Positions 2,116 to 37,209 of a stretch of DNA of 64,000 nucleotides are shown piece by piece; positions within the stretch are counted from its first letter, which is position 1; each line of letters starts with the position of its first letter. Below the pieces are notes generated by a model that saw only the letters and a list, made by a program, of their open reading frames with translations, made no database searches and was not told the DNA's origin. The DNA comes from Halorubrum salipaludis (lineage in GTDB: Archaea > Halobacteriota > Halobacteria > Halobacteriales > Haloferacaceae): contig NZ_NSKC01000010.1 of NCBI RefSeq assembly GCF_002286985.1, forward strand, positions 1-64,000, written 5' to 3'. Made by a program: the position numbers and the translations under genes.

Positions 2116-3662
2116 CGGTAGACCCCTCCGCGCTTGAAGATCGTTCGGAGCATCACGAGGACCGGGATGATCTCCAGCCGGCCGATCCACATGTGGAAGA
2201 GGAACGCGATTTTCCCGATGGTGGGCAGCGAGTCAGGACCGGTAATCCCCGACGAAAGGCCCACGTTCCCCTGGGCGCTCGCGACCTCGAAGAGGACGTT
2301 TGCGAGCGAATACTCCCCCGACGGCAGTGTGAGTAACAGGAGGAACGTCCCCAAAACGAGGAACGTACTCCAGAGGACGACGATGATTGCGGCCTCCATA
2401 AATTCGCGACTCGCCTCTTCCTCGTTGAGTCGCCGATTGTTGATTTCCAGCCGACGCACTGCACTCTCGGGGTAGAACACGTCCGCGATCTGGTGGCGAA
2501 TCCCCTTCACGAGCGTCAGGCCCCGAATAAGCTTGATACCGCCCGCCGTCGATCCCGCTGCCCCGCCGACGAACATTCCGAAGGTGACCGTGAGTTGGGC
2601 GTACGACGGCCACCGGCCGAGCGCGATGTTCGTCGCGTCGACGGCCGTCTGGAAGCCCGTACAGGTCGCCGCCGAGACGAACTGGAACAGGCCGTACCGC
2701 AGGGCCGCAAACGGCGTCTCGTAGGGGCCGACGAAGTAGAGGAACCCCCACAACAACGCCGATCCGATGCCCATATAGCCGAACACCCAGCGCGTCTGGA
2801 GATCCGAGTAGAAGTTCCGGAGGTCACCCTGGAGGATGAGGTAATGGACCGGGAACGCGATGCTCCCGAGTAGCATGATCGGAATCAATACGAAGTCAAT
2901 TGCGACGCTGTCGTAGGTCGCAATCGAGTTGTCCGTAATCGAGAACCCGCCTGTCGCAAGTCCGGTCATCCCGTGGTTGATCGCCCCCCAGATTGGCATC
3001 CCTGCCAGCCACAGGGCGAGGATCGACCCGAACGTGAACAGGATGAAGATCCACCAGATCGTCCGCACCGTTGAGACGATGCTCGGGTGGATCTTCTTCG
3101 AGCGAGCCTCACTCTCGTAGAGCGTCAACGAGCCGCTTCCGGGGCGCGAGAGAATCGCCGTCGTCAGGACGATCACGCCGACGCCCCCAACCCATTCGGA
3201 GAACGTCCGCCACCACTGCAGCGTCCTCGGCAGCACCTCCTCGTTGTCGGTCATCGTGAGGCCTGTCCCGGTGAAGCCGCTCATACTCTCGAAGATGGCG
3301 TTCAACGGCTCGGTGAACGCCGCGAGCGTCGCCGTCTGCGCCGGCGTCGAGAATCCCGGCACGCCGAGTTGGACGCTCCACGCAATCAGGAGGAACGGCA
3401 GCGAGCCGAAGATGCCCACCGAGAACCACCCCGACGCGGCAACGATCATCCCGTGGAACCGACCGGGAGCTTCCGCCCCCTCGAATCGTCGGTAGAGCAC
3501 CCACCCGATGCCGAGCGGAACGAGGGCGGAGACCAGTAGCGCCGGGAGCGCGAAGTACTCGCCCCAGACGATCGGCACGACGAGCGAGATGAGCATCAAC
3601 CCACCGAGCGCTTCCAGGATGCGTCCGAGGTCCCGCCCGACTGTCGCAACAGCCCCGTTCAT
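2112..3662 (-). CDS. trkH: TrkH-type potassium uptake membrane subunit
   Basis: TrkH/KtrB subunits form the K+-conducting pore that works with a cytoplasmic TrkA ring. The protein is 516 aa and shows four pore-loop repeats with conserved glycines: SGFTGTGLTM (about residue 128), TGLATGGFSITDN (about 250), TCTGFQTAVD (about 345) and GNVGLSSGI (about 475), with about ten hydrophobic helices. The length is normal for the family. ATG 3662 is chosen because the 14 extra upstream residues are polar and basic. trkA lies 60 nt upstream on the same strand, and the pair makes a complete uptake system. Haloarchaea accumulate molar KCl, so such systems are central to osmoadaptation. Confidence 0.9.
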   Translation of the reverse strand: MNGAVATVGRDLGRILEALGGLMLISLVVPIVWGEYFALPALLVSALVPLGIGWVLYRRFEGAEAPGRFHGMIVAASGWFSVGIFGSLPFLLIAWSVQLGVPGFSTPAQTATLAAFTEPLNAIFESMSGFTGTGLTMTDNEEVLPRTLQWWRTFSEWVGGVGVIVLTTAILSRPGSGSLTLYESEARSKKIHPSIVSTVRTIWWIFILFTFGSILALWLAGMPIWGAINHGMTGLATGGFSITDNSIATYDSVAIDFVLIPIMLLGSIAFPVHYLILQGDLRNFYSDLQTRWVFGYMGIGSALLWGFLYFVGPYETPFAALRYGLFQFVSAATCTGFQTAVDATNIALGRWPSYAQLTVTFGMFVGGAAGSTAGGIKLIRGLTLVKGIRHQIADVFYPESAVRRLEINNRRLNEEEASREFMEAAIIVVLWSTFLVLGTFLLLLTLPSGEYSLANVLFEVASAQGNVGLSSGITGPDSLPTIGKIAFLFHMWIGRLEIIPVLVMLRTIFKRGGVYR

Positions 3663-3722
3663 GCGTTCCCTGTGGTGACTGGTAGCTGACGCGCGCGGTG
3701 CCAAGACGAAATCATAGACACC

Positions 3723-4409
3723 TCACTCCTCCTTGTCCTCATAGTGGCCAAAGATGTCCGTAATCTCCGGATCAGCACCGACGCCGGAGTAGACGGTTAG
3801 CAGATCGCCCGCCTGAATCGTGGTCTCACCGCGCGGGGTAATCGGATGGTCATTTTCGTCCCGTTCGATAGCCACGACGAGCATCTCGTCGGTGAGCAGC
3901 CCCGATTGGGCAGCTTCCTTGAGCGTCTTTCCCGCGATCGGTGCCTCGTCAGTGACCGTGATCTCGAACACTTCAGCATCATCCCCGATCCGCATATAGT
4001 CGACAATCGCCGGCCGTGCCACGGCACGGTACAGGTACTCGGCGATGAGTTGCTGGGGGTTCTGCATCGTGTTCACGCCGATCTGATCGAACAGCCCCAT
4101 GTGCTCGGGATTATGAACAACGGAGAGAATCGCGGGTACCTCGAATTCCCTCGCCAGTAGGCAGGTCATCACGTTCGTCGCGTCCTGGTCAGTCGTCGAA
4201 ATGAGCGCATCGGCCTGGCCAGCGCCGGCATCATCCAGGGTGTCCTTCGACGTCGCATCGGCGTTCAGCACCAGACAGTCGAACTCGTCGGCCGCTCGAT
4301 TCGCTCTGGTCTCGTCGCGCTCGATGACGACGACATCGTTCCCGGACTTGGTCGCAATATCGATGAGTGGCGTGCCGATGTCGCCGGCGCCAATGATGAT
4401 GAGGTACAT
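3723..4409 (-). CDS. trkA: TrkA-type potassium uptake regulatory subunit
   Basis: This is a 228-aa cytosolic gating subunit with a TrkA_N Rossmann domain (GAGDIGTPL near the N-terminus, then VIERDE at the end of beta 2, for NAD(H)/ATP binding). A TrkA_C domain follows from about residue 145, containing EAPIAGKTLKEA. It lies only 5 nt downstream of the permease gene and upstream of trkH, so it should be cotranscribed with both. The TrkA_C domain closely resembles the C-terminus of the AsnC-type regulator at 8114-8857, suggesting that both read the same ligand. Function is well supported by family motifs and by the neighbouring pore gene. Confidence 0.9.
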   Translation of the reverse strand: MYLIIIGAGDIGTPLIDIATKSGNDVVVIERDETRANRAADEFDCLVLNADATSKDTLDDAGAGQADALISTTDQDATNVMTCLLAREFEVPAILSVVHNPEHMGLFDQIGVNTMQNPQQLIAEYLYRAVARPAIVDYMRIGDDAEVFEITVTDEAPIAGKTLKEAAQSGLLTDEMLVVAIERDENDHPITPRGETTIQAGDLLTVYSGVGADPEITDIFGHYEDKEE

Positions 4410-4414
4410 GTAGG

Positions 4415-6754
4415 TTACACCTCCAGTCGCCGCAAGAGCGCTTCACGGACCGACATCGCCGACTCCTCCGGGCCGCGGGCCATCACGACCGTCTTGTCTA
4501 CTTCTTCGCCGATCGTCTCCGGGAGCGACCCGAACACTGCCTGTGAAATCGCGCCGGAGCGAGTCGCCCCAACGCAGATCGTATCGTATTCCTCTGCAGC
4601 GTCGAGAATCGTCTGTTCAGTATCCTCAGCAACTCTGATCTCGGTCTCGTACGACATGTATTGGATTCCTGCGCGTTCAGCTAGCTCCTCGATTACCGCT
4701 TCACCGCGCTCGGTGGGGGAGCCCTCATCGTCAGTATCGGTTTCCGGCGACTGTACGTTGAGCAGCGTCAGCGAGGCGTCATCGGCCGCTGCGACGAACT
4801 CCGCCGCTCGCCGGGCCGCAATCGGCGCGTGTGGCCCCTCTCCTGCGAGAACCATGATGTCACCCTCACCACGCTCACCTTCGGAGCCGAGTTTCACGAG
4901 CGTCGCATCACAGGGTGCGCGTCCGATGACGGGATCGATTGTGGATCCGAGGACGTGCTCTCGTCGACTTCGAGTTCCTTGCCAGCCGAGGAGGACGTGA
5001 TCCGCGTTTTCCTCCTCGATGACGTCCAAGATGACCGAGCCGGCATTGCGACCGGCGATCGCCCGCGTCTGCAGGCCGATATCGAGATCGGCGGCGATAT
5101 CGCGGGCGGAGTCCAGCAGTTCCTGCTGCCGTTCGACCCGCTCCTCTTCGAATTCGAGGTCCTGCGAGAGCGACGTCTGGCGGGGAACTTCGATGACGTT
5201 CACGGCGATGACCTCGGCGTTCTCGTCTTCGTGGGCATGCGCGCTGGCCGCGGCCATCCGGAGCAAGTCTTGCTCCGTCTCCGGATTCGCAACCGGAACC
5301 ACCACACGGTAGCGGTCGTCACCGTTGGCGACCGCCGTCGGTTCGGGCGCAATCGCCTCGCCGACCAGACTCTCGCTCAGGGCTCGGTCCCGCGCGTAGA
5401 GGTAGTACCAGGCGATGCCGAAGGCGACGAGTATCGTCCCGATCGCACCGACCGGTGTCGGCGTAACGGGCAGGGCGAGTTCGACCGGCCCGAACGTGAC
5501 GACAGTCGGGGCAAACTCGACCGTCATCTGAAAGAGGACGGCCAAACACGACAGCATTCCGAGAACCGGGACGACTGGATACAGGACCGACGGTATCTGG
5601 AACGCCGGGTCGTACGCATCCGGATTCGCCCGGCGCAACACGACCACAGTGACGTGCACGAGGGCGTACGTGACGAGGTACATGAAACTCGCCACCTCGG
5701 CGAGCGTCCCGATCCCGACGCCGATGGCAATCAGGACGAGCGTGATAATCCCCGTCGCCGAGATCGCCCGGTAGGGCGTTCGGAAGCGTTCGTGGACTTC
5801 ATTGAGCCAGTTGACGAGAATCCGGTCTCGGCCCATCGCGAAGTTGACCCGGGCGGCCGACAGGATGCTCGCGTTCGCACTCGAGACTGTCGCGAGGACC
5901 GCACCGACAATCATCGCGAGCGCGCCTATCGACCCCATGAATTCGGTTGCAACGTCGGCAACCGGGACCTCGGAGGTCGCGAGTGCGTCTATCGACAGGG
6001 TGCCCGTCGAGACGAACATCACACCGACGTACATCAGCGTCGGCGTCACCACCGACGCGATCATCGCCAGCGGAAGGTTTCGACTCGGGTTCTTGATCTC
6101 CTCGGCGCTGGTCGCGATTACCTCAAACCCGATGAACGTCACGTACACCGTCCCGATGGTCGCCGCGACCGCCGGCCACCCGTTAGGGTTGAACTCCCCG
6201 ATGGTCGGGCCACTGATGAAGCCCAGCGCGAGGAACGCGACGATGAGGCCGACGAGCGTGAGGACGATGACGTTCTGCAGTGAACCAGTCTCCTTGACGC
6301 CGTAGTAGTTGACCGCGGTCAGGAGCGCCGCCATTACGAGGGCAGCAACAGAAATTCCGAGCTGCCCCCAGCCAGCGAGGAAGCCAATATACTGGCCGAG
6401 GCCGGGCAGAAGATACTGACCGAAGCCAATCATGTAGAACGCCGACGCGAAGGTGAGTCCGGCCCACATACCCCAGCCGACGATACTCCCGAAGAACGGC
6501 CCGAGGGCGCGGTTGACGTAGTAGTAGCTGCCGCCGGCCTTCGGCATCCCCGTCGCCAGCTCCGAAAGGGAGAGCGCCGCTAATAACGACACGATCCCAC
6601 CGGCGAAAAACGAAATCATACTGGCCGGACCTGCTTGCTGGGCAGCGATGCTCGGGAGGACGAAAATCCCCGCTCCGATCATCGTTCCCAGGCCGATCGT
6701 GTACGCCTCGAGGAAACCGAGGTCGCGGGCAAGCTCCTGATCGGTTTCACTCAT
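4415..6754 (-). CDS. APC-superfamily amino acid permease with two C-terminal UspA domains
   Basis: This is a 779-aa fusion protein. The first 450 residues form an APC transporter of about 12 TM helices beginning with the typical IGLGTMIGAGIFVLP helix. Residues about 470-615 and 640-765 are two universal-stress (UspA) domains with nucleotide-loop signatures (GWQGTRSRREHVLGSTID and VGATRSGAISQAVFGS). Such fusions are common in haloarchaea and probably gate cationic or neutral amino acid transport by nucleotide binding. The substrate cannot be read from the sequence. It is cotranscribed with trkA (5 nt apart) and follows a free UspA gene, linking amino acid and K+ uptake in one operon. Confidence 0.88.
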   Translation of the reverse strand: MSETDQELARDLGFLEAYTIGLGTMIGAGIFVLPSIAAQQAGPASMISFFAGGIVSLLAALSLSELATGMPKAGGSYYYVNRALGPFFGSIVGWGMWAGLTFASAFYMIGFGQYLLPGLGQYIGFLAGWGQLGISVAALVMAALLTAVNYYGVKETGSLQNVIVLTLVGLIVAFLALGFISGPTIGEFNPNGWPAVAATIGTVYVTFIGFEVIATSAEEIKNPSRNLPLAMIASVVTPTLMYVGVMFVSTGTLSIDALATSEVPVADVATEFMGSIGALAMIVGAVLATVSSANASILSAARVNFAMGRDRILVNWLNEVHERFRTPYRAISATGIITLVLIAIGVGIGTLAEVASFMYLVTYALVHVTVVVLRRANPDAYDPAFQIPSVLYPVVPVLGMLSCLAVLFQMTVEFAPTVVTFGPVELALPVTPTPVGAIGTILVAFGIAWYYLYARDRALSESLVGEAIAPEPTAVANGDDRYRVVVPVANPETEQDLLRMAAASAHAHEDENAEVIAVNVIEVPRQTSLSQDLEFEEERVERQQELLDSARDIAADLDIGLQTRAIAGRNAGSVILDVIEEENADHVLLGWQGTRSRREHVLGSTIDPVIGRAPCDATLVKLGSEGERGEGDIMVLAGEGPHAPIAARRAAEFVAAADDASLTLLNVQSPETDTDDEGSPTERGEAVIEELAERAGIQYMSYETEIRVAEDTEQTILDAAEEYDTICVGATRSGAISQAVFGSLPETIGEEVDKTVVMARGPEESAMSVREALLRRLEV

Positions 6755-28185: not shown

Positions 28186-29418
28186 ATGACGCCCGACTCT
28201 TCACCCAGTTCTGTCGACGATCCACTCTTTGAATCCGGGCATCGCATCTTCGCGAACAAGGATCTCCTGAAAATCGGCCACGTGCCGGAGGCTGACCGGA
28301 TCGTCGGTCGCGACGAGGAAATCTCGAAGCTCGCGAAACGTCTCAACGGTGCTGTCCACGGGTACTCCCCAGAAAACGTGATGATCTACGGGAAAACGGG
28401 GACTGGTAAATCTCTCGTTTCGAAACACGTCTGCCAACGAGCTCAGAATGCCGCTCAGGATGGCGTCGAGATTGGAACCGCGTATATCGACTGTGCTGAA
28501 GACAACACGGAGACTCAAGCAATCTCCTCACTGGCCGCGAAGCTGAACGATGAATCTTCGACTGGAATCTCCGTCCCCCATACCGGCCTCAGTACGTCGA
28601 AATACTACAAACTCCTCTGGAAGACGCTCGACGCTCAATTCGATTCTGTGATCATCATCCTCGACGAGATCGATCTGATGAACGACGACAGCGTGCTGAT
28701 GAAGCTCTCGCGCGCTGAGGAGGCGGGAAAAATCGACTGTAGCGTCGGTGTCATCGCGATCAGCAACAAGATCCAGTACGTCGACAACGTGAACGAGCGC
28801 GTGAAAAGCAGCTTCCAGCACAAGGAGCTGTTCTTCAAGCCATACGACGCCAACCAGTTACGGGAGATTATGTTCAACCGTGAGGACGCCTTCCAGGACG
28901 GCGTCCTTTCCGAGGACGTGATTCCGCTCTCGGCGGCCTTCGCCGCGCAGGAGCACGGTGACGCTCGGAAGGCGATCGACATTCTTCGCCACGCCGGGGA
29001 GGTCGCCTACGAGGCCGGAGCAGAGCAGGTGACGGAGGAACACGTCCGCCAGGCACAGCAGCACGCCGAAAAGGACCGGTTCAGAGAACTCGTGAACGGC
29101 GCACCCACGCAGGCGAAGGCGGCGTTGCTGGCGCTCACGGAGCTGAGTGTCAACAGCAACGACGATGCGTTCCTCACGAGTCGGGTGTACGACCAGTACG
29201 AACGCATCTGCAACCATCTCGATATGGATATCCTCTCCGTCCGCCGGTTCCGCGACATCCTGAAAGAGCAAGCCTTCCTCGGGGTTGTCGAAATCGAGAA
29301 GATCAACAAGGGGAGTGCGGGCGGCATCCACCTCCAGAACCGACTCATCGAAGATCCCCAGGTCGTCCGCGAAACGATCCTCGAGGACAGCCGGATGCAG
29401 GATTGGACTCGCGAGTAG
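28186..29418 (+). CDS. Orc1/Cdc6 replication initiator
   Basis: This is a 410-aa AAA+ initiator. Walker A is YGKTGTGKS (about residues 68-76), Walker B ILDEIDLM (about 157-164), and sensor 2 is around HGDARKAIDI. The C-terminal 100 residues form a winged helix (TSRVYDQYERICNHLDMDIL, then SVRRFRDILKEQ), which binds ORB repeats. It is flanked on both sides by ORB-like repeats, so gene and origin form one unit, as in other haloarchaeal replicons. Length and motifs are complete. Confidence 0.93.
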   Translation: MTPDSSPSSVDDPLFESGHRIFANKDLLKIGHVPEADRIVGRDEEISKLAKRLNGAVHGYSPENVMIYGKTGTGKSLVSKHVCQRAQNAAQDGVEIGTAYIDCAEDNTETQAISSLAAKLNDESSTGISVPHTGLSTSKYYKLLWKTLDAQFDSVIIILDEIDLMNDDSVLMKLSRAEEAGKIDCSVGVIAISNKIQYVDNVNERVKSSFQHKELFFKPYDANQLREIMFNREDAFQDGVLSEDVIPLSAAFAAQEHGDARKAIDILRHAGEVAYEAGAEQVTEEHVRQAQQHAEKDRFRELVNGAPTQAKAALLALTELSVNSNDDAFLTSRVYDQYERICNHLDMDILSVRRFRDILKEQAFLGVVEIEKINKGSAGGIHLQNRLIEDPQVVRETILEDSRMQDWTRE

Positions 29419-29557: not shown

Positions 29558-31732
29558 CTACGACAGTTCGTTGGAGGCTCCGAACGAGGTCAAAACGGCG
29601 TCCCTCTCACCGGAGAGCTCTCGGCGAATATCGGTTCGGTCCCACCCGAGCGGTGAAAGCACGCTCTCGACTGCTCTGACCAGCTGCGTCTCGTAGTACG
29701 AGGCGTCGTAGGTCCCGATCGCTTCGTGGGCGAGGGCGACCCGGTCTCGCGAGGATTTCTCGTCGTCGACGACCACGTACTCGATATCCTGGCCCGGGTG
29801 GACTGCCAGGTCCTGCTCGCGGGCCCGTTTCAAGGCGGCCACGTTCTGGGTATTCTGTGAGTAGCCTTCCAGGGGCTTGGAGACACGGTTCCGCTCAACG
29901 AGCCGCTCTACTTCTACGTTGCCCGCCTGTAGTTCGCCGATTGCTCGTTCGAGCCGTCGGAGTACCGCGTCCGGTGACCGCGTGGCATCGAGCTGGTCGA
30001 GACAGTCCCGCTGGACGTCCTCGATGAACGGCGGGGTCGAGCGCTGCCGGGCTTCGATGCCTCTGACCTTGAAGTCGTCGTCGCCGGCGACCTTTCCGAA
30101 GTACTTCGTTAGCGCGCCGGCGTCGCTCTCGCGCTGCGGGACGAACGCCACCCAGTCGTAGTGGGCCTCGTGTTCGAGCCGAATCTCGACGCGTTCCGTA
30201 ATCTCCGTCGCAAGCGTCCCGAGGTCCTCGCGGTCCTCGTCGTCGACGTCAGGGTCCGGCGTCACCCAGATGGAGTCGACGATGCCGTGGACGACCCGCC
30301 AGCCGCCAGCTTCCAGCCGCTGTTTCGCCGTCAGCAGAATCTCGCGAGCGAACGCGTTGATTGCTTCGTGGCACTCGATGCGGCCGAACTTCGCGTTGCT
30401 GAACCCTTGATAGCCGAAGCAGGCGACGAGGATCCACTTCAGCGCACCCGACCGTCCCTCGAGTTCCGCCAGCCGGTCCTCGTCGGGGTTGTCCCGTTCC
30501 TTCTCGTGACGGATGGCCGCCTTAATCTCGTCGCGCGCGTCGATGATCGGCTGCAGCACGTCGACGAGGTAGCCCCGGTCGTCGCAGATCGAGTACCCGA
30601 GGCCGGGGATGTCGTCGCGGTCGCTGTGGCACTCACACCGGATGACGTCCGGCGAGACGTTCCGGGTACAGATGATGTTCGGGTACAACGAGGAGAAGTC
30701 GAGTTCATGGACGTTCTCGTGAAGCCCGACCTTGGGTGCGAAGATGAAGCCGCCACGGTCGGCGTCGTGGAGCGTCCCCATCGGCTTGTAGAACTCGTGA
30801 CGCCAGGAGTTCCATGGCACGAGGACGTCGCGGTCGTGGGCCTCGCAGATCTGGATCGCCGTGAGCACGTTCCCGATCGACGCCCACGCAAGTTCCTGGA
30901 CGGGCTTCTTTGAGCGCGACACGAGGTCGAGAACGCCGTCGAGGTTCGTCTCTCCGTAGAAGAACGTGTTCGACTCGTCGATAATCGCCCGGCCGGGCAC
31001 GTTGTACCGCGCCGGCGAGTGGCCGACGCGGCCGTAGCTCGAGTACGTCGACCGGCTCGCGAGCTGCTGGTAGTCGACGTCCGGCCACCGACTCAGCGAG
31101 AAGCCGTCGACGCCGGCGTCCGTCGCCATCTCGTACAGGGTCGGGACGATCTCGCTGGTTGAGCAGACCAGGACGTCCGGATCGTGCGCTTCGAGTGCCC
31201 CTTGGACGGCGGTCAGGATATCCGTCGGCGAGCCGGTGACGGTGTCGCCGGCGACGGACAGTTCCTCGTAGACGTCGTTGCTCGTTTCGGTCACCGGAAC
31301 ACTGAGTCGGAGCGTCGACAGCTCGTTCGCCGGCGTCGGATCGGCGCCGGTCTCCAGACAGTACCGAAACTCTCTCGAAAAGTCCACGTTGAAACAGGCG
31401 AGATCCCCGACTGGATAGTCCGACAGTTGACGCGCCTGCCGGGCGAGTGGAGTGACGCGATCGATGTGGGCAACGTCGACTGCGAGAACGGCCTCCTCGT
31501 CGCGTCGAAAGCCGGGGCGTCGCGCAACCAGTTCGGTCGCGACAACATCCGGGTGCTGGTCGTACACCGATTGGAGCGTCGTGAGGTCGATGTCGGACGC
31601 TGGGTCGCGAGCGGCGACGTAGAAGCGTGGGGTGTAGTCATCGCGCTCGGTCGCGACGGCGCCGTCGGCGGTTGCCTCCCACTCCAGGACGCGGCCGTCG
31701 TCCAGAAAGTCGATACTGAACGGCATCGTCAC
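29558..31732 (-). CDS. Divergent family-B DNA polymerase
   Basis: This is a 724-aa protein. Motif A is LDFSSLYPNII and motif B is KWILVACFGYQGF. At the motif C position it has HGIVDSIWV, where family B normally has YGDTDS: the first Asp is replaced and the second (catalytically essential in well-studied enzymes) remains. The N-terminal 340 residues correspond to the exonuclease-like region without an obvious complete DxE motif. Such proteins are annotated as type B polymerases on haloarchaeal genomes. Activity is uncertain. GTG 31732 overlaps the upstream gene (GTGA); an internal ATG at 31726 is possible. It is last in a three-gene operon with a RecA-like protein. Confidence 0.82.
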   Translation of the reverse strand: MTMPFSIDFLDDGRVLEWEATADGAVATERDDYTPRFYVAARDPASDIDLTTLQSVYDQHPDVVATELVARRPGFRRDEEAVLAVDVAHIDRVTPLARQARQLSDYPVGDLACFNVDFSREFRYCLETGADPTPANELSTLRLSVPVTETSNDVYEELSVAGDTVTGSPTDILTAVQGALEAHDPDVLVCSTSEIVPTLYEMATDAGVDGFSLSRWPDVDYQQLASRSTYSSYGRVGHSPARYNVPGRAIIDESNTFFYGETNLDGVLDLVSRSKKPVQELAWASIGNVLTAIQICEAHDRDVLVPWNSWRHEFYKPMGTLHDADRGGFIFAPKVGLHENVHELDFSSLYPNIICTRNVSPDVIRCECHSDRDDIPGLGYSICDDRGYLVDVLQPIIDARDEIKAAIRHEKERDNPDEDRLAELEGRSGALKWILVACFGYQGFSNAKFGRIECHEAINAFAREILLTAKQRLEAGGWRVVHGIVDSIWVTPDPDVDDEDREDLGTLATEITERVEIRLEHEAHYDWVAFVPQRESDAGALTKYFGKVAGDDDFKVRGIEARQRSTPPFIEDVQRDCLDQLDATRSPDAVLRRLERAIGELQAGNVEVERLVERNRVSKPLEGYSQNTQNVAALKRAREQDLAVHPGQDIEYVVVDDEKSSRDRVALAHEAIGTYDASYYETQLVRAVESVLSPLGWDRTDIRRELSGERDAVLTSFGASNELS

Positions 31733-32034
31733 GGGTTCGAGTCCGGTGGGGCACTCTCCTGGTCATCGCGTGCTGCGACCGCGGCTTCGAGTTCCTCGAG
31801 GCGCTCTTCGTGATCGTCGAGGCGCCCCTCCTGTTCAAGATCGATGCTGAGCAGCGCCGACAGCAGCGGGTTTTGGTGGTTCAACAGCCCGCTCGCGTCG
31901 GCGTGCTCGCGGGCGTACTCGAACAGCCGGTCGAAGCGCGGCTGGTCGCGACGCCGCAGTGCCTGGCGGAACTCCGCCCACCGCTCTTCGATGGCCCGGA
32001 GCGCATCCCGGTACGTCGGGTTTGTGCGCCCCAT
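31729..32034 (-). CDS. Small helical protein between RecA-like and polymerase genes
   Basis: This is a 101-aa protein, predominantly helical (YRDALRAIEERWAEFRQALR, then NPLLSALLSIDLEQEGRLDD and HEERLEELEAAVAARDDQES), ending in a coiled coil. The stop overlaps the polymerase start and the ATG is 2 nt from the end of the upstream gene, so all three are coupled. A coiled-coil linker or adaptor between the two larger proteins is plausible but inferred. Confidence 0.72.
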   Translation of the reverse strand: MGRTNPTYRDALRAIEERWAEFRQALRRRDQPRFDRLFEYAREHADASGLLNHQNPLLSALLSIDLEQEGRLDDHEERLEELEAAVAARDDQESAPPDSNP

Positions 32035-32036
32035 CG

Positions 32037-32981
32037 CTATCGGCCTCCTGTCCCGGTCGCGGTCCACGCATCGAGCAAGGGGTCCGCAGTGGCCGCCACC
32101 GTCTCACCGTCAGCGATGACGCCCGTTCCGACGCCCTCCGGGGTCGGCGTCGACGGCGCCGGCGTCGTCGGTTCCACGCCGACCTGCGTGGCGCGTGCCG
32201 CGAGCAGCTGCCGCCAGTACGCGAACGTCGTCTGGTAGTACGCGCCGTCGTCGACGGGATAGACGAGCGTCTCGAAGTCTTCGCCGACGACCCGTGGCCC
32301 CATCCGCGTCTGCTCGCACTCCAGGTGGTGGTCGGCGACCGTCGCGACTGGCTCGGTGAATTCGTTTCGTTCGTTTCGCGTAACGAGCACCGGGATGTCG
32401 TACCCATCGGCGTAGGTCGCCAACCGGGCGAGAGTTCGAGCCTGAAGGGTTCTCGCGTGGGTCTCGCCGAGGGTATCGTCGGCGCGGTACTGGACGTCGA
32501 CGGCCGGCGCGACGATGAGGGCAGGTGTGTGGGGCGACGTGTCCTCGTCACGACTCGGTTCCCCTCGACCGGCCGTCCCGGCGTCAGTGGTGGACATCTG
32601 GATCGACTTGTTCACTGCCGTCGGGAGATTACAGACGGCGCCGTAGTGCTGGTAGGCGGTAAATCCGCGTGCCACGTGGATTCGGTTGAGCAACCGTTGA
32701 CTGGGCGCGATCTGAGCGAGTGTCGTCGTCGTCGCGTGACCATTTGCGTCGACCCAGAAGGCGGGCCCGTCGTGCAGAAGGAGATGGTCGAGTACGAGCG
32801 ACTGCAGGATTGGGACGCCGCGGCCTCCCTCGACGTCGAGCAGCGTGATGCCGTCGCCGAGTGACGGCAACAACATCCCGTCCGTAGCCGGATCGGCCTG
32901 GTCAGCGAGGGACCGATTGCGGTCGGCTCCCCGTGTCGGCTGGTCCACCGTTAATCGGTTCGACGTTGAGTGTTCTCCCAT
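32037..32981 (-). CDS. RecA/RadA-like protein with degenerate P-loop
   Basis: This is a 314-aa protein. The layout resembles RadA/RadB-type ATPases: GITLLDVEGGRGVPILQSLV at the P-loop position, then AFWVDANGHATTTTLAQIAP and RIHVARGFTAYQHYG, with ALIVAPAVDVQY at the Walker B position. The P-loop lacks the GKT/GKS signature, so ATP hydrolysis is doubtful. It is first in the operon with a small helical protein and an unusual polymerase. A RecA-like protein plus polymerase cassette recalls bacterial ImuA-ImuB-DnaE2 mutasomes in design, not in homology. Confidence 0.65.
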   Translation of the reverse strand: MGEHSTSNRLTVDQPTRGADRNRSLADQADPATDGMLLPSLGDGITLLDVEGGRGVPILQSLVLDHLLLHDGPAFWVDANGHATTTTLAQIAPSQRLLNRIHVARGFTAYQHYGAVCNLPTAVNKSIQMSTTDAGTAGRGEPSRDEDTSPHTPALIVAPAVDVQYRADDTLGETHARTLQARTLARLATYADGYDIPVLVTRNERNEFTEPVATVADHHLECEQTRMGPRVVGEDFETLVYPVDDGAYYQTTFAYWRQLLAARATQVGVEPTTPAPSTPTPEGVGTGVIADGETVAATADPLLDAWTATGTGGR

Positions 32982-33260: not shown

Positions 33261-35174
33261 TTACTTCACGTATTTGTCTATCAAGTAGTCGGTAATCTGC
33301 TCTTCGCGAGCCCGAATAAACGCCTGTGCGTTCTCCGGAGTCGGCTCGATATCGGGATACTGATTGACACGTTGGATACGCTCAGCCTCGGCGTTGCCGA
33401 GGTCGTCCAACCAGTCGTGGGGCCACTGGTCGCTTTTGATCTCTTCGTTCATCTCGTGTGGCAACAGCTGTAGATTCCCGATTCGATTAAGATCAACAGT
33501 CTCGCCAATAGATTCAGATACGGATTCTGCCCTGCTTTTCGGGTAGATGTGGTCAACCGAGTAGTCGCCAATACTGGTGGACGTCGATTGTGTATATGAT
33601 TCCTCAATGAGGCCGAGTACTGCCGTGACATCTGTGTCGGTAAATACAGGCTCTCCTGGGCTGCTCTCGTAACGAGCGTTGGCTACGACTCGACGGATAT
33701 CTTCAGCAGATGGGCTGATGTTCTCCGATTCAAATAGCTCCTCGCCTGGGAAAACGATGGGTTCGTCGGGTTCTGGTTCCCACTCGCGAAGGTATCGCAT
33801 CCAGTTGCGGCACTTGCCGTAGGTCAGAACTTGGTAGTACTTGTTCAGCAAGAGGGCTCTTGCGACGAACTGGAAAACACTCTCGCGATTCGCGTCGGAG
33901 ACCTCAGCATCCGGATTCTGGTAATAGAACACGCCAAGTAGCGCGAAGATGGGCATCGTGTTCATAACCGAGCTCCGAATCCCGCTCTCGATTACTGTCT
34001 GGAACGCCTTCTCGAGCGATGTCCGAAACCACTCGAAGCGCCGTCCGGCGACGACGGGCTCATTATACAGCCACCGCTCGCGCATCTCGTCCATTCTTTC
34101 TTCGTCGATACTGCTAAGATTGCTGCGGAGGAGGTCTGTTCCGACTAAGTATGCTGTATACCGGAGAAACAGCTTCCGGTCGATTTCTTGCTCATACTCA
34201 GGGAATTTCTGTTTAAATTCGTCAATCCAATCTTGGATGACCTCCCTAGGATTGATTCGCTCGTCCTCCTCTTCGGCGTACGGCCAATAACTCATGAGCT
34301 TTGAGAGGAGGAGCTGGTAGGGCTTCGGATCAGAGCCCTCCATGTTCAGCCTAGTGAATATCTCGGGAATTTCGGATCTATCCTTGTTCGTACTGTCCGT
34401 TTCGAGATCGTCCTGTAGAACGTTGCTCGTAATGTCTCTCGCGACGGCCATCGAAATACTGCGCAGCTGGTAGCGGGTTTCGTTGTCCGCCCTCAATTCG
34501 GCGGTGTCCACGTATTCATCGACGACTTCGCTAAGTGTTCTTCCCTCAAGTACCGTGGAGTTCCCGGAGCCCCCGTCGTTGCCTCCGTTCCATAACTCCC
34601 CGACCGGCATCCACAGGTGTCGCGTGTCGCCGGTCATGGTATAGCCGGTCTCGTCCGTTCCTCCAAACTTTCCTGTCGATTTGAACTCAAATCCGTAGTC
34701 GCCTGCTGTATCGTCGCGATCGTACTCTGGGTGACCGAATAGGTCAACACACAGCCGCTGGCCTTCCCAGTACTGGAGCTCATCACTGGGCTTCCCCCGT
34801 CCGCCATTATATACTGTTATTCCCCCCTCGACACCGATATAGAGCGAGTTCAAGCGCTGCTGGCCGTCTATAATCAGAATCTCCGGTTCTTTGTCTTCAA
34901 CCTCCTGATTGTAGAGGTCGTATTCCGCCAAAACTGGATCCGGTGGCCGATAGTCATCGGCAACATACATCCGTAGGAAATTATACGAGTTGTAGTCGCT
35001 GATATTGGCCGCTCGAACTCTCCATTCAGTTATGGCTCCGATTGGATAGTCTCGAATCAATGAATCGAACAGTTCCTCAATCTGCCTGGGATTCCAGACA
35101 AACTCCCGCTGGAGGCCGGGAAGAAAGATATGGTCGTTTATTTCAGACAAATAATCCGAGACCTGTCTGGACAT
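33261..35174 (-). CDS. GmrSD-like DUF262/DUF1524 nuclease
   Basis: This is a 637-aa protein. The N-terminal DUF262 region has LPGLQREFVWNPRQIEELFD and the signature IIDGQQRLNSLY (about residue 95). The C-terminal DUF1524 HNH-like region has SVDHIYPKS and NRIGNLQLLP (about residues 550-580). Fusions of the two parts are type IV restriction enzymes of the GmrSD/BrxU type that cut modified phage DNA. All signature motifs are present. It is a single gene with a palindromic promoter upstream. Confidence 0.85.
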   Translation of the reverse strand: MSRQVSDYLSEINDHIFLPGLQREFVWNPRQIEELFDSLIRDYPIGAITEWRVRAANISDYNSYNFLRMYVADDYRPPDPVLAEYDLYNQEVEDKEPEILIIDGQQRLNSLYIGVEGGITVYNGGRGKPSDELQYWEGQRLCVDLFGHPEYDRDDTAGDYGFEFKSTGKFGGTDETGYTMTGDTRHLWMPVGELWNGGNDGGSGNSTVLEGRTLSEVVDEYVDTAELRADNETRYQLRSISMAVARDITSNVLQDDLETDSTNKDRSEIPEIFTRLNMEGSDPKPYQLLLSKLMSYWPYAEEEDERINPREVIQDWIDEFKQKFPEYEQEIDRKLFLRYTAYLVGTDLLRSNLSSIDEERMDEMRERWLYNEPVVAGRRFEWFRTSLEKAFQTVIESGIRSSVMNTMPIFALLGVFYYQNPDAEVSDANRESVFQFVARALLLNKYYQVLTYGKCRNWMRYLREWEPEPDEPIVFPGEELFESENISPSAEDIRRVVANARYESSPGEPVFTDTDVTAVLGLIEESYTQSTSTSIGDYSVDHIYPKSRAESVSESIGETVDLNRIGNLQLLPHEMNEEIKSDQWPHDWLDDLGNAEAERIQRVNQYPDIEPTPENAQAFIRAREEQITDYLIDKYVK

Positions 35175-35193
35175 GGTCACCAGAACGGAAGAT

Positions 35194-35410: not shown

Positions 35411-35475
35411 GTACGTTGGTTCCACGAAGTTCCTGTGCGACCACGTTGAAGATGCTACCCTCCGAACTCATCGGT

Positions 35476-36162
35476 ATGTGTGGCCGGAACTCGCTCTTCA
35501 TCGACCAAGCAGACCTCGAGGCCCGCTTCGATGCCGAGGTCGTCGCGGACGGAGGCTATACACCCCGATACAACATCGCGCCTGGCGACGACCTCCACAT
35601 CGTCACGAACGAGGCTCCAGACGAGATCGACGCCTACCACTGGGGACTGATTCCGTTCTGGGCGGATGAGCCCGAGGAGGGTATCATCAACGCTCGCTCC
35701 GAGACTGCCGACGAGAAACGCGTCTTCGAGCGGGCGTGGGAATCACGTCCCTGCCTCGTCCCCTCGTCAGGGTTCTACGAGTGGAAATCGCCAAACGGCG
35801 GGTCGAAACAGCCCTACCGGATTTTTCGCGAGGACGACTCCGCGTTCGCGATGGCCGGGCTCTGGGATGTCTGGGAGGGTGATGATGAGAGGATCTCGTG
35901 CGTCACGATTCTCACGACGGAGCCGAACGACCTGATGAACTCAATCCACGACCGGATGCCGGTCGTCCTCCCAAAGGACGCTGAGTCCGACTGGCTTGCC
36001 GCAGACCCGGACACCCGCAAGGAACTGTGCCAGCCATATCCGAACGACGACCTGGACGCTTACGAGATCTCGACGCGAGTCAACAACCCTGGCAACGACG
36101 ATCCCCAGGTCATCGAGCCGCTGGACCACGAGCAATCGGACCTCGGCGAGTTCAGTTCTTGA
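35476..36162 (+). CDS. SRAP/HMCES-family abasic-site protein
   Basis: This is a 228-aa protein. SRAP proteins form a covalent bond with abasic sites in ssDNA through Cys2. The start at 35476 gives MCGRNSLF, with Cys exposed after Met removal, so the longer upstream reading is rejected. Other motifs: YNIAPGD, HWGLIPFWA, INARSET (catalytic Asn/Glu region), SSGFYEWK and IHDRMPVVL (catalytic His). The family is complete. It supports genome protection during replication or the SOS response, fitting the nearby initiator and polymerase genes. Confidence 0.92.
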   Translation: MCGRNSLFIDQADLEARFDAEVVADGGYTPRYNIAPGDDLHIVTNEAPDEIDAYHWGLIPFWADEPEEGIINARSETADEKRVFERAWESRPCLVPSSGFYEWKSPNGGSKQPYRIFREDDSAFAMAGLWDVWEGDDERISCVTILTTEPNDLMNSIHDRMPVVLPKDAESDWLAADPDTRKELCQPYPNDDLDAYEISTRVNNPGNDDPQVIEPLDHEQSDLGEFSS

Positions 36163-36180: not shown

Positions 36181-37209
36181 TCACTGCATCGGCGACGCCG
36201 CTGCCGAATCGACGAGCGAGTACTCTCGGTCTCGACTCGTCCCTTCCGCCTCGAGGAGGTTGTACTGCTCCATTTTCGAGAGGTACGTGCGGATAGTCCG
36301 CTTCGTCCGCGGATCATCGACGTCCTCGGTATAGCGCTCGTGAATTTCGCTCGGCCCGACCGGGCCGTGCTCGCGAACGACGTCGTAGACGACGCGCTGG
36401 TGCGGCGTGAGCGAGTCGAGGCTCTTCTGCTTGATTTGGGCCCGAGCATCCTCGGCGGCGTCCAGGAGAATGTCGTCGGTGATGCGCTCGTGGTTCTCGC
36501 GATCTGCCTTGCCGGCGGCTGTTCGGAGGATGCCGATTGCGAGGCGGGCGTCGCCGGCGGCCGCGTCGGCGATCCGGTAGAGCTGGTCGTCGGTGATGAC
36601 GTCCTCATCGAGGCCCCACTTCGCCCGCGCACTCAGAATGTCGTACAGCTGCTCGTCGTGGTACTTGTCCATCCGGACGTGCTCGCTGGAGCGCAGTCGG
36701 CTCACGAGGCGGTCGTCGACGCGGCTGAACAGCTCCTCTTCCTTGTTCGCGATGCAGATGATCGCGAACTGCGGGAGGCTGTGGAGGTCGTAGATGACGC
36801 TGGGGTCTTCGAGCTGGTCGACCTCGTCGAGGATGACGACGGTTCGCGGGCCGTCATGCTGCTGGAGGCGATCGACGAGTTCGTCGTGGGGCGTCGACTG
36901 CCGGTGGATGTCGATGGTCGCGCCGAGGTCGTCGAGGATCTGGTAGAGCGTCCGAAATCGGGTGTAGTTACGCCAGCAGTTGACGTAGATGGCCTCGACG
37001 TCGAGGACCTCTTCTCGAAGTCGTTCCGTGACGAACTTCGAGATGCACGTCTTCCCGGTTCCGCTGGGTCCGGTGACGATAGCGGTGTCGGCGGGTTCTC
37101 CGTTCGTGATGGGCTCGAGAACGCTGGAGAGGTGGTTGACCTCGGCGTCGCGATGCTCAACTTCCCGAGGAACGAACCCCGCACGGAGAACGCGAGCATC
37201 GCGGATCAT
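36181..37209 (-). CDS. Second Orc1/Cdc6-family protein
   Basis: This is a 342-aa protein. Walker A is TGPSGTGKT (about residues 47-55), Walker B is VVILDEVDQLED (about 120-131), and a sensor 1 region (FAIICIANKEEE) and an arginine-rich SRLRSSEHVR are visible. The C-terminal winged helix is about residues 255-335 (HQRVVYDVVREHGPVGPSEI). It is shorter and distinct from the orc1 at 28186. GTTTCCGGAAAC palindromes lie upstream of it. No ORB with a G-run is seen beside it, so it may act at another origin or regulate. Confidence 0.9.
   Translation of the reverse strand: MIRDARVLRAGFVPREVEHRDAEVNHLSSVLEPITNGEPADTAIVTGPSGTGKTCISKFVTERLREEVLDVEAIYVNCWRNYTRFRTLYQILDDLGATIDIHRQSTPHDELVDRLQQHDGPRTVVILDEVDQLEDPSVIYDLHSLPQFAIICIANKEEELFSRVDDRLVSRLRSSEHVRMDKYHDEQLYDILSARAKWGLDEDVITDDQLYRIADAAAGDARLAIGILRTAAGKADRENHERITDDILLDAAEDARAQIKQKSLDSLTPHQRVVYDVVREHGPVGPSEIHERYTEDVDDPRTKRTIRTYLSKMEQYNLLEAEGTSRDREYSLVDSAAASPMQ

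Follow-up and report, generated by a model that had tools for sequence, protein, structure and literature searches.

The closest described system is the archaeal PolB2 mutasome (PMC11791011, PMC4104785), a trio of genes in the order iRadA, PPB2, PolB2. Its polymerase has an HxxxD motif C and has lost its exonuclease, its RadA-like protein has lost the Walker A motif, its small helical protein bears an N-terminal MGRT arm, and Orc1 and SRAP genes are found as neighbours. Models of the PolB2-iRadA-(PPB2)3 complex are of high confidence (PMC11791011). Dpo2 of the crenarchaeon Sulfolobus islandicus, which belongs to the same polymerase subfamily, is an active extender polymerase that is responsible for damage-induced mutagenesis and needed for targeted mutagenesis (PMC8764526, PMC7390963). 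Escherichia coli Pol V (UmuC, UmuD' and RecA) follows a common logic of a polymerase with a small helper and a RecA-type protein, and a similarity of architecture to the PolB2 mutasome has been argued (PMC11791011); Pol V, however, comprises a Y-family polymerase and an active RecA, and as a system it is not homologous.

The window analysed here, a stretch of 64,000 nucleotides from Halorubrum salipaludis, belongs to a contig of 116,671 bases in a 3.5 Mb genome. Three minus-strand genes fill its positions 29558-32981, exactly the interval delimited by the first-pass annotation, whose reader was unaware that the gene trio was already described. The locus is very probably a haloarchaeal PolB2 mutasome operon, iRadA-PPB2-PolB2, located on a plasmid-type replicon and serving damage tolerance by the mechanism of its family. 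The cassette is an already described system (Rogozin 2008, Makarova 2014, Timinskas 2025): it shares the trio, gene order, HxxxD motif C, MGRT arm, lost exonuclease, lost Walker A and Orc1 and SRAP neighbours of the published mutasome and differs from it in no essential respect, while some relatives add an exonuclease gene. The change in motif C is like that of Dpo2, but the window copy is haloarchaeal, lies on a plasmid-like contig as one of three cassettes, and is known from sequence. As the first-pass annotation had read, the small gene is coupled between the other two, with a gap of 2 nt after iRadA and an overlap of 4 nt with polB2. Among related loci, some of which represent one genome fetched twice, the 2-base distance between iRadA and PPB2 recurs in 79 of 85 pairs and the 4-base overlap of PPB2 and polB2 in 37 compact loci.

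PolB2 (724 aa; 29558..31732, minus strand) starts with a GTG at 31732, and an ATG at 31726 is another possible start. The profile comparison suggested by the first-pass annotation assigns it to the PolB2 subfamily, with 1461.6 bits against NCBIfam NF004418 (cut-off 692 bits) and an E-value of 3.3e-25 for Pfam DNA_pol_B, and its motif pattern agrees with that of published PolB2. Motif A (DFSSLYP, residues 345-351; 30680..30700, minus strand) is intact within ELDFSSLYPNI, and reads ELDF[SAT]SLYPNI in 98/98 homologs. Motif C was compared by hhalign with the genome's own replicase, which carries YGDTDS and FDIE. In PolB2 it reads HGIVDS (residues 482-487; 30272..30289, minus strand), so that of YGDTDS the Tyr and the first Asp have given way to other residues and D486, the second Asp, is retained. 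The locus thus has the kept motif A (ELDFSSLYP) and the IVDS in place of DTDS from which the first-pass annotation had started. That annotation had also noted that homologues with an intact DTDS would speak against its reading; DTDS occurs in 0 of the 98 distinct haloarchaeal PolB2 sequences searched, in which the motif reads VVHGIVDSIWV (94), VVHGIIDSIWV (3) or VAHGIVDSIWV (1). HxxxD is typical of published PolB2, and two Sulfolobales enzymes that carry it are still active (PMC8764526). In the same hhalign comparison, the exonuclease motifs FDIE, NFEDFD and YSIRD of the replicase fall opposite CFNVD, STSEIV and ASIGN, by which the proofreading domain of the window PolB2 is judged degenerate.

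About 20 residues before motif A lies DADRGG, matched by position only to the D(K/R) motif of S. islandicus PolB2, which contacts PPB2. Most homologs keep its D-R pair; in the divergent L086 and L084 copies it was not found. The C-terminus RDAVLTSF aligns with QTGLGSFM of the replicase; the replicase Gln has no counterpart there, and homologs differ in this tail. Members of the family may or may not have a sliding clamp binding motif in either PolB2 or iRadA. A search of viral contigs yielded no relative. In Leptospira phage LE1-type records (KF114879, KF114880, KF114878), the encoded polymerase shares about 31% identity with the window PolB2 across 76% of the latter.

The RadA/Rad51-like protein (314 aa; 32037..32981, minus strand) is identified by its family profile as the iRadA of Timinskas et al. 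(PMC11791011). The first-pass annotation had described a RecA-like gene lacking GKT/GKS, and indeed neither string occurs at the Walker A position, where DVEGGRGVPILQ stands instead (residues 49-60; 32802..32837, minus strand). The same or a similar sequence occupies this site across the family (alignments A1 and A3; 84 sequences); one sequence, L072, contains a GKS/GKT string somewhere along the protein. The window protein alone has no match in Pfam. A profile of its close homologs reaches RadA structures weakly (E 0.0019), and hhalign of that alignment against RadA gives a probability of 39%, with 0.9% for the control, which is suggestive only. The profile A3 draws on 24 members of wider diversity, one of them the divergent paralogue that this genome carries on contig C3; it matches RadA with a best E-value of 2.7e-12, and the chains listed for it are all RadA, RadB, Rad51, DMC1 or Rad51 paralogues. 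Pfam Rad51 is matched by 15 of these 24 members. Makarova et al. had noted that one of these families, arCOG07763, is so decayed that its RadA origin is visible only by sensitive methods (PMC4104785). An AlphaFold2 model of iRadA based on 26 close homologs (pLDDT 36, pTM 0.27) was discarded and the diverse 24-member profile was used instead. The tail of the protein, PLLDAWTATGTGGR (32037-32090), follows a variable linker and is conserved in the plasmid-type group but absent from the divergent group L182-L210; it is a possible candidate for a binding motif.

PPB2, an arCOG07300-type small helical protein of 101 aa (31729..32034, minus strand), has an ATG start two bases past iRadA, and its reading begins MGRTNPTYRDAL. 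Its N-terminus, MGRTNPTYR, contains both the MGRT and the Arg9 that form the conserved arm of published PPB2 according to Timinskas et al. (PMC11791011). The MGRT start is found in 75 of 76 homologs, and all nine residues are identical in 72 of the 76. A Pfam search returned only weak coiled-coil-type matches. Relative to several relatives, the dN/dS values are 0.11-0.18 for PolB2, 0.14-0.16 for iRadA and 0.11-0.15 for PPB2, and purifying selection thus acts on all three genes. Together with the NF004418 score, these values exclude a chance origin of the cassette.

An Orc1/Cdc6 family gene (28186..29418, plus strand; Pfam Cdc6_lid/Cdc6_C) is convergent with polB2, and a second, Orc1/Cdc6-like gene (36181..37209, minus strand; Pfam Cdc6_lid E 1.7e-13) lies upstream of the cassette; relatives, L005 and L006 for instance, have the same gene upstream. 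The SRAP gene that the first-pass annotation had placed close by is present (35416..36162, plus strand; Pfam SRAP E 1.1e-67), but a GmrSD-type restriction gene (33261-35180) intervenes before the cassette. SRAP proteins require a Cys at position 2, and the true start is probably the ATG at 35476, which would give Met-Cys2. Of 82 related loci, only 2 have the GmrSD-type gene, which makes the stretch between SRAP and iRadA a variable slot. Orc1/Cdc6 genes occur in 74 and SRAP in 23 of these 82 loci, and both are enriched near polB2 in the published survey (PMC11791011).

Among 145 Halobacteria genomes, PolB2 is matched in 100 and iRadA in 79, and 78 of the 79 iRadA genomes are also PolB2-positive. 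With fragments omitted, Fisher's test on genomes gives p ~2e-15 for this co-occurrence, related species not being independent. Within this sample, iRadA lies at most 10 kb from 88 of 116 long PolB2 matches, in all 88 cases upstream and on the same strand, and within 1 kb of 62 of the 116; a lack of co-occurrence, which would have told against the first-pass reading, is contradicted. The H. salipaludis genome itself holds three cassettes: the compact one in the window (C2), a compact and divergent one (C3) whose polymerase is about 50% identical to the window PolB2, and an extended one (C4). Extra iRadA-PPB2 pairs in haloarchaea were noted by Makarova et al. (PMC4104785). At the DNA level, the cassette is matched by 102 public plasmid records, 39 of which cover at least 80% of it, and the PolB2 tree intermixes genera and families, as expected for plasmid-borne genes. 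In many relatives polB2 lies kilobases away from iRadA-PPB2, and many genomes contain polB2 fragments, which shows that the operon does not stay intact everywhere. Many haloarchaeal genomes (G092, G036, G046, G105, G068 and others) have, besides intact copies, polB2 fragments or copies interrupted by in-frame stops.

By extension from work on other species, the shape of the complex, its activity, its induction by damage and its role in mutagenesis may be pictured as follows. Upon DNA damage, iRadA, PPB2 and PolB2 would assemble into a complex in which one N-terminal MGRT arm of a PPB2 trimer enters the cleft between PolB2 and iRadA. PolB2 would dock on iRadA as a RadA subunit binds the next RadA subunit, and by this docking the polymerase may be tethered, with no ATP hydrolysis, to DNA that is damaged or undergoing recombination, a tethering role that we infer ourselves. 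Lacking proofreading, PolB2 would then use motif A and the remaining motif C Asp to extend primer ends that are mispaired or contain a lesion, mutations being the cost. The damage-tolerance complex suggested by the first-pass annotation agrees with the literature on the trio (PMC11791011, PMC7390963, PMC8764526), from which it is carried over by analogy to the haloarchaeal copy. None of the published PolB2 assays considered concerns a haloarchaeal enzyme; in Haloferax volcanii PolB2 is deletable according to an unpublished note in which the phenotype is not stated (PMC7776575).

The mutasome reading has to be weighed against one in which PolB2 is catalytically dead and contributes to replication or origin recognition as a structural or regulatory subunit, for example in plasmid replication control with the Orc1 genes. 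A structural or regulatory role was the first to be proposed for the family (PMC2527604, PMC4104785), and it would suit the absence of the first Asp from motif C, the lost exonuclease motifs, the frequency of Orc1/Cdc6 genes in related loci (74/82) and the 102 matching plasmid records. However, the Sulfolobus relatives with a like motif C are active polymerases (PMC8764526), and in PolB2 homologs the second motif C Asp is nearly invariant, as are motifs A and B and KxY; a protein kept for structure alone could dispense with all of them. We therefore regard a dead polymerase as improbable. Decay of the cassette into plasmid cargo that no longer works is less probable still: the many partial polB2 matches and split cassettes that suggest it belong to other genomes, whereas the window copy is intact and coupled and has dN/dS values of 0.11-0.18 across its three genes.

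We give least credence, amounting to almost none, to a mutasome of the bacterial ImuA-ImuB-DnaE2 type or an archaeal homolog of it. The first-pass annotation had drawn the parallel to this system, and the logic is indeed alike, a RecA-like protein sharing an operon with an error-prone polymerase. The bacterial system, however, is composed of C- and Y-family parts, while the polymerase of the window belongs to neither and is of family B, its RecA-like protein is a RadA/Rad51 relative, and the cassette has no counterpart of ImuB or DnaE2. Because none of the polymerase parts are homologous, these family assignments refute homology and the functional analogy alone stands.

The window cassette itself is ordinary in the PolB2 mutasome family; the new point, worth a second look, is an extended variant that carries a separate exonuclease gene (Exo). 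About half of the related three-gene loci are non-compact, with PPB2 and polB2 0.2-6 kb apart, and Exo directly follows PPB2 in nearly one in three close relatives, a second cassette of the same genome among them. This arrangement, iRadA-PPB2-Exo followed by a variable interval and polB2, was found at about 17 distinct loci, among them G000:C4:100226-109071 (L085), L052:1006-7114, L093 and L212. The gene has about 215 codons, and in 29 of 31 cases its start shares 4 bases with the stop of PPB2. Its product matches Pfam RNase_H_2 (E 3.6e-9) and is a predicted DEDD exonuclease, with all four catalytic acids (Asp10, Glu12, Asp103 and Asp186) conserved in 17 of 17 sequences. The best structural matches of its AlphaFold2 model (pLDDT 80, pTM 0.82) are B-family polymerase chains (KOD, Tgo, Pol II and Pol epsilon), the top match having an E-value of 6e-7 and a TM score of 0.60 to the query. 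The matched part is apparently the proofreading domain, a reading based on the length of the alignment and the DEDD motifs rather than on target ranges. Purifying selection acts on the gene (dN/dS 0.09-0.29). The 145 genomes contain 19 copies of the Exo subfamily (at least 62% identity), of which 18 follow iRadA on the same strand at a distance of 305-337 bases; of 30 remoter paralogues (at most 55% identity), only one lies within 10 kb of iRadA, on the opposite strand. The extended form was gained or lost repeatedly on the PolB2 tree, with 6 changes, at least 3 of which are forced by well supported branches. The main texts of PMC11791011 and PMC4104785 do not mention the exonuclease gene.

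The interval between Exo and polB2 varies in content. Two minus-strand genes, for a DUF7342 winged-helix protein and a 160-residue protein with very weak TumE similarity, recur there (L052:3553-4700; about 15 loci) and are perhaps a regulator or toxin-antitoxin-like pair. In L085 (G000:C4), the extended cassette of the window's own genome, the interval encodes two related P-loop GTPase-like proteins of 433 and 421 aa with lower GC3 (reverse-strand coordinates 3090-5707). An annotated plasmid with the extended arrangement has TnpB and helix-turn-helix genes in the interval and labels the gene as ribonuclease H-like. In one genome (L093) the four genes iRadA-PPB2-Exo-PolB2 are contiguous, and only 12 bases separate polB2 from Exo.

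TLS polymerases are thought to operate without proofreading. In extended cassettes, Exo may, as a free-standing 3'-5' exonuclease of the B-family type, work with iRadA and PPB2 and supply PolB2, an extender without an exonuclease of its own, with proofreading in trans, a proposal that we rate somewhat short of an even chance since the contact between Exo and PolB2 is only hypothetical and the iRadA-PPB2-Exo trio is distant from polB2 in some genomes (G066, G126 and G083 C11). Exo could thus act apart from the polymerase, and a weaker alternative is that iRadA-PPB2-Exo could form a nuclease complex of its own. The compact window copy is a further intact case of a known mutagenesis system that is common and often plasmid-borne in haloarchaea. 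If proofreading in trans by Exo is true, a mutasome operon would encode its own separate proofreader, a design of switchable fidelity, and the extended form is directly testable in genetically tractable haloarchaea.
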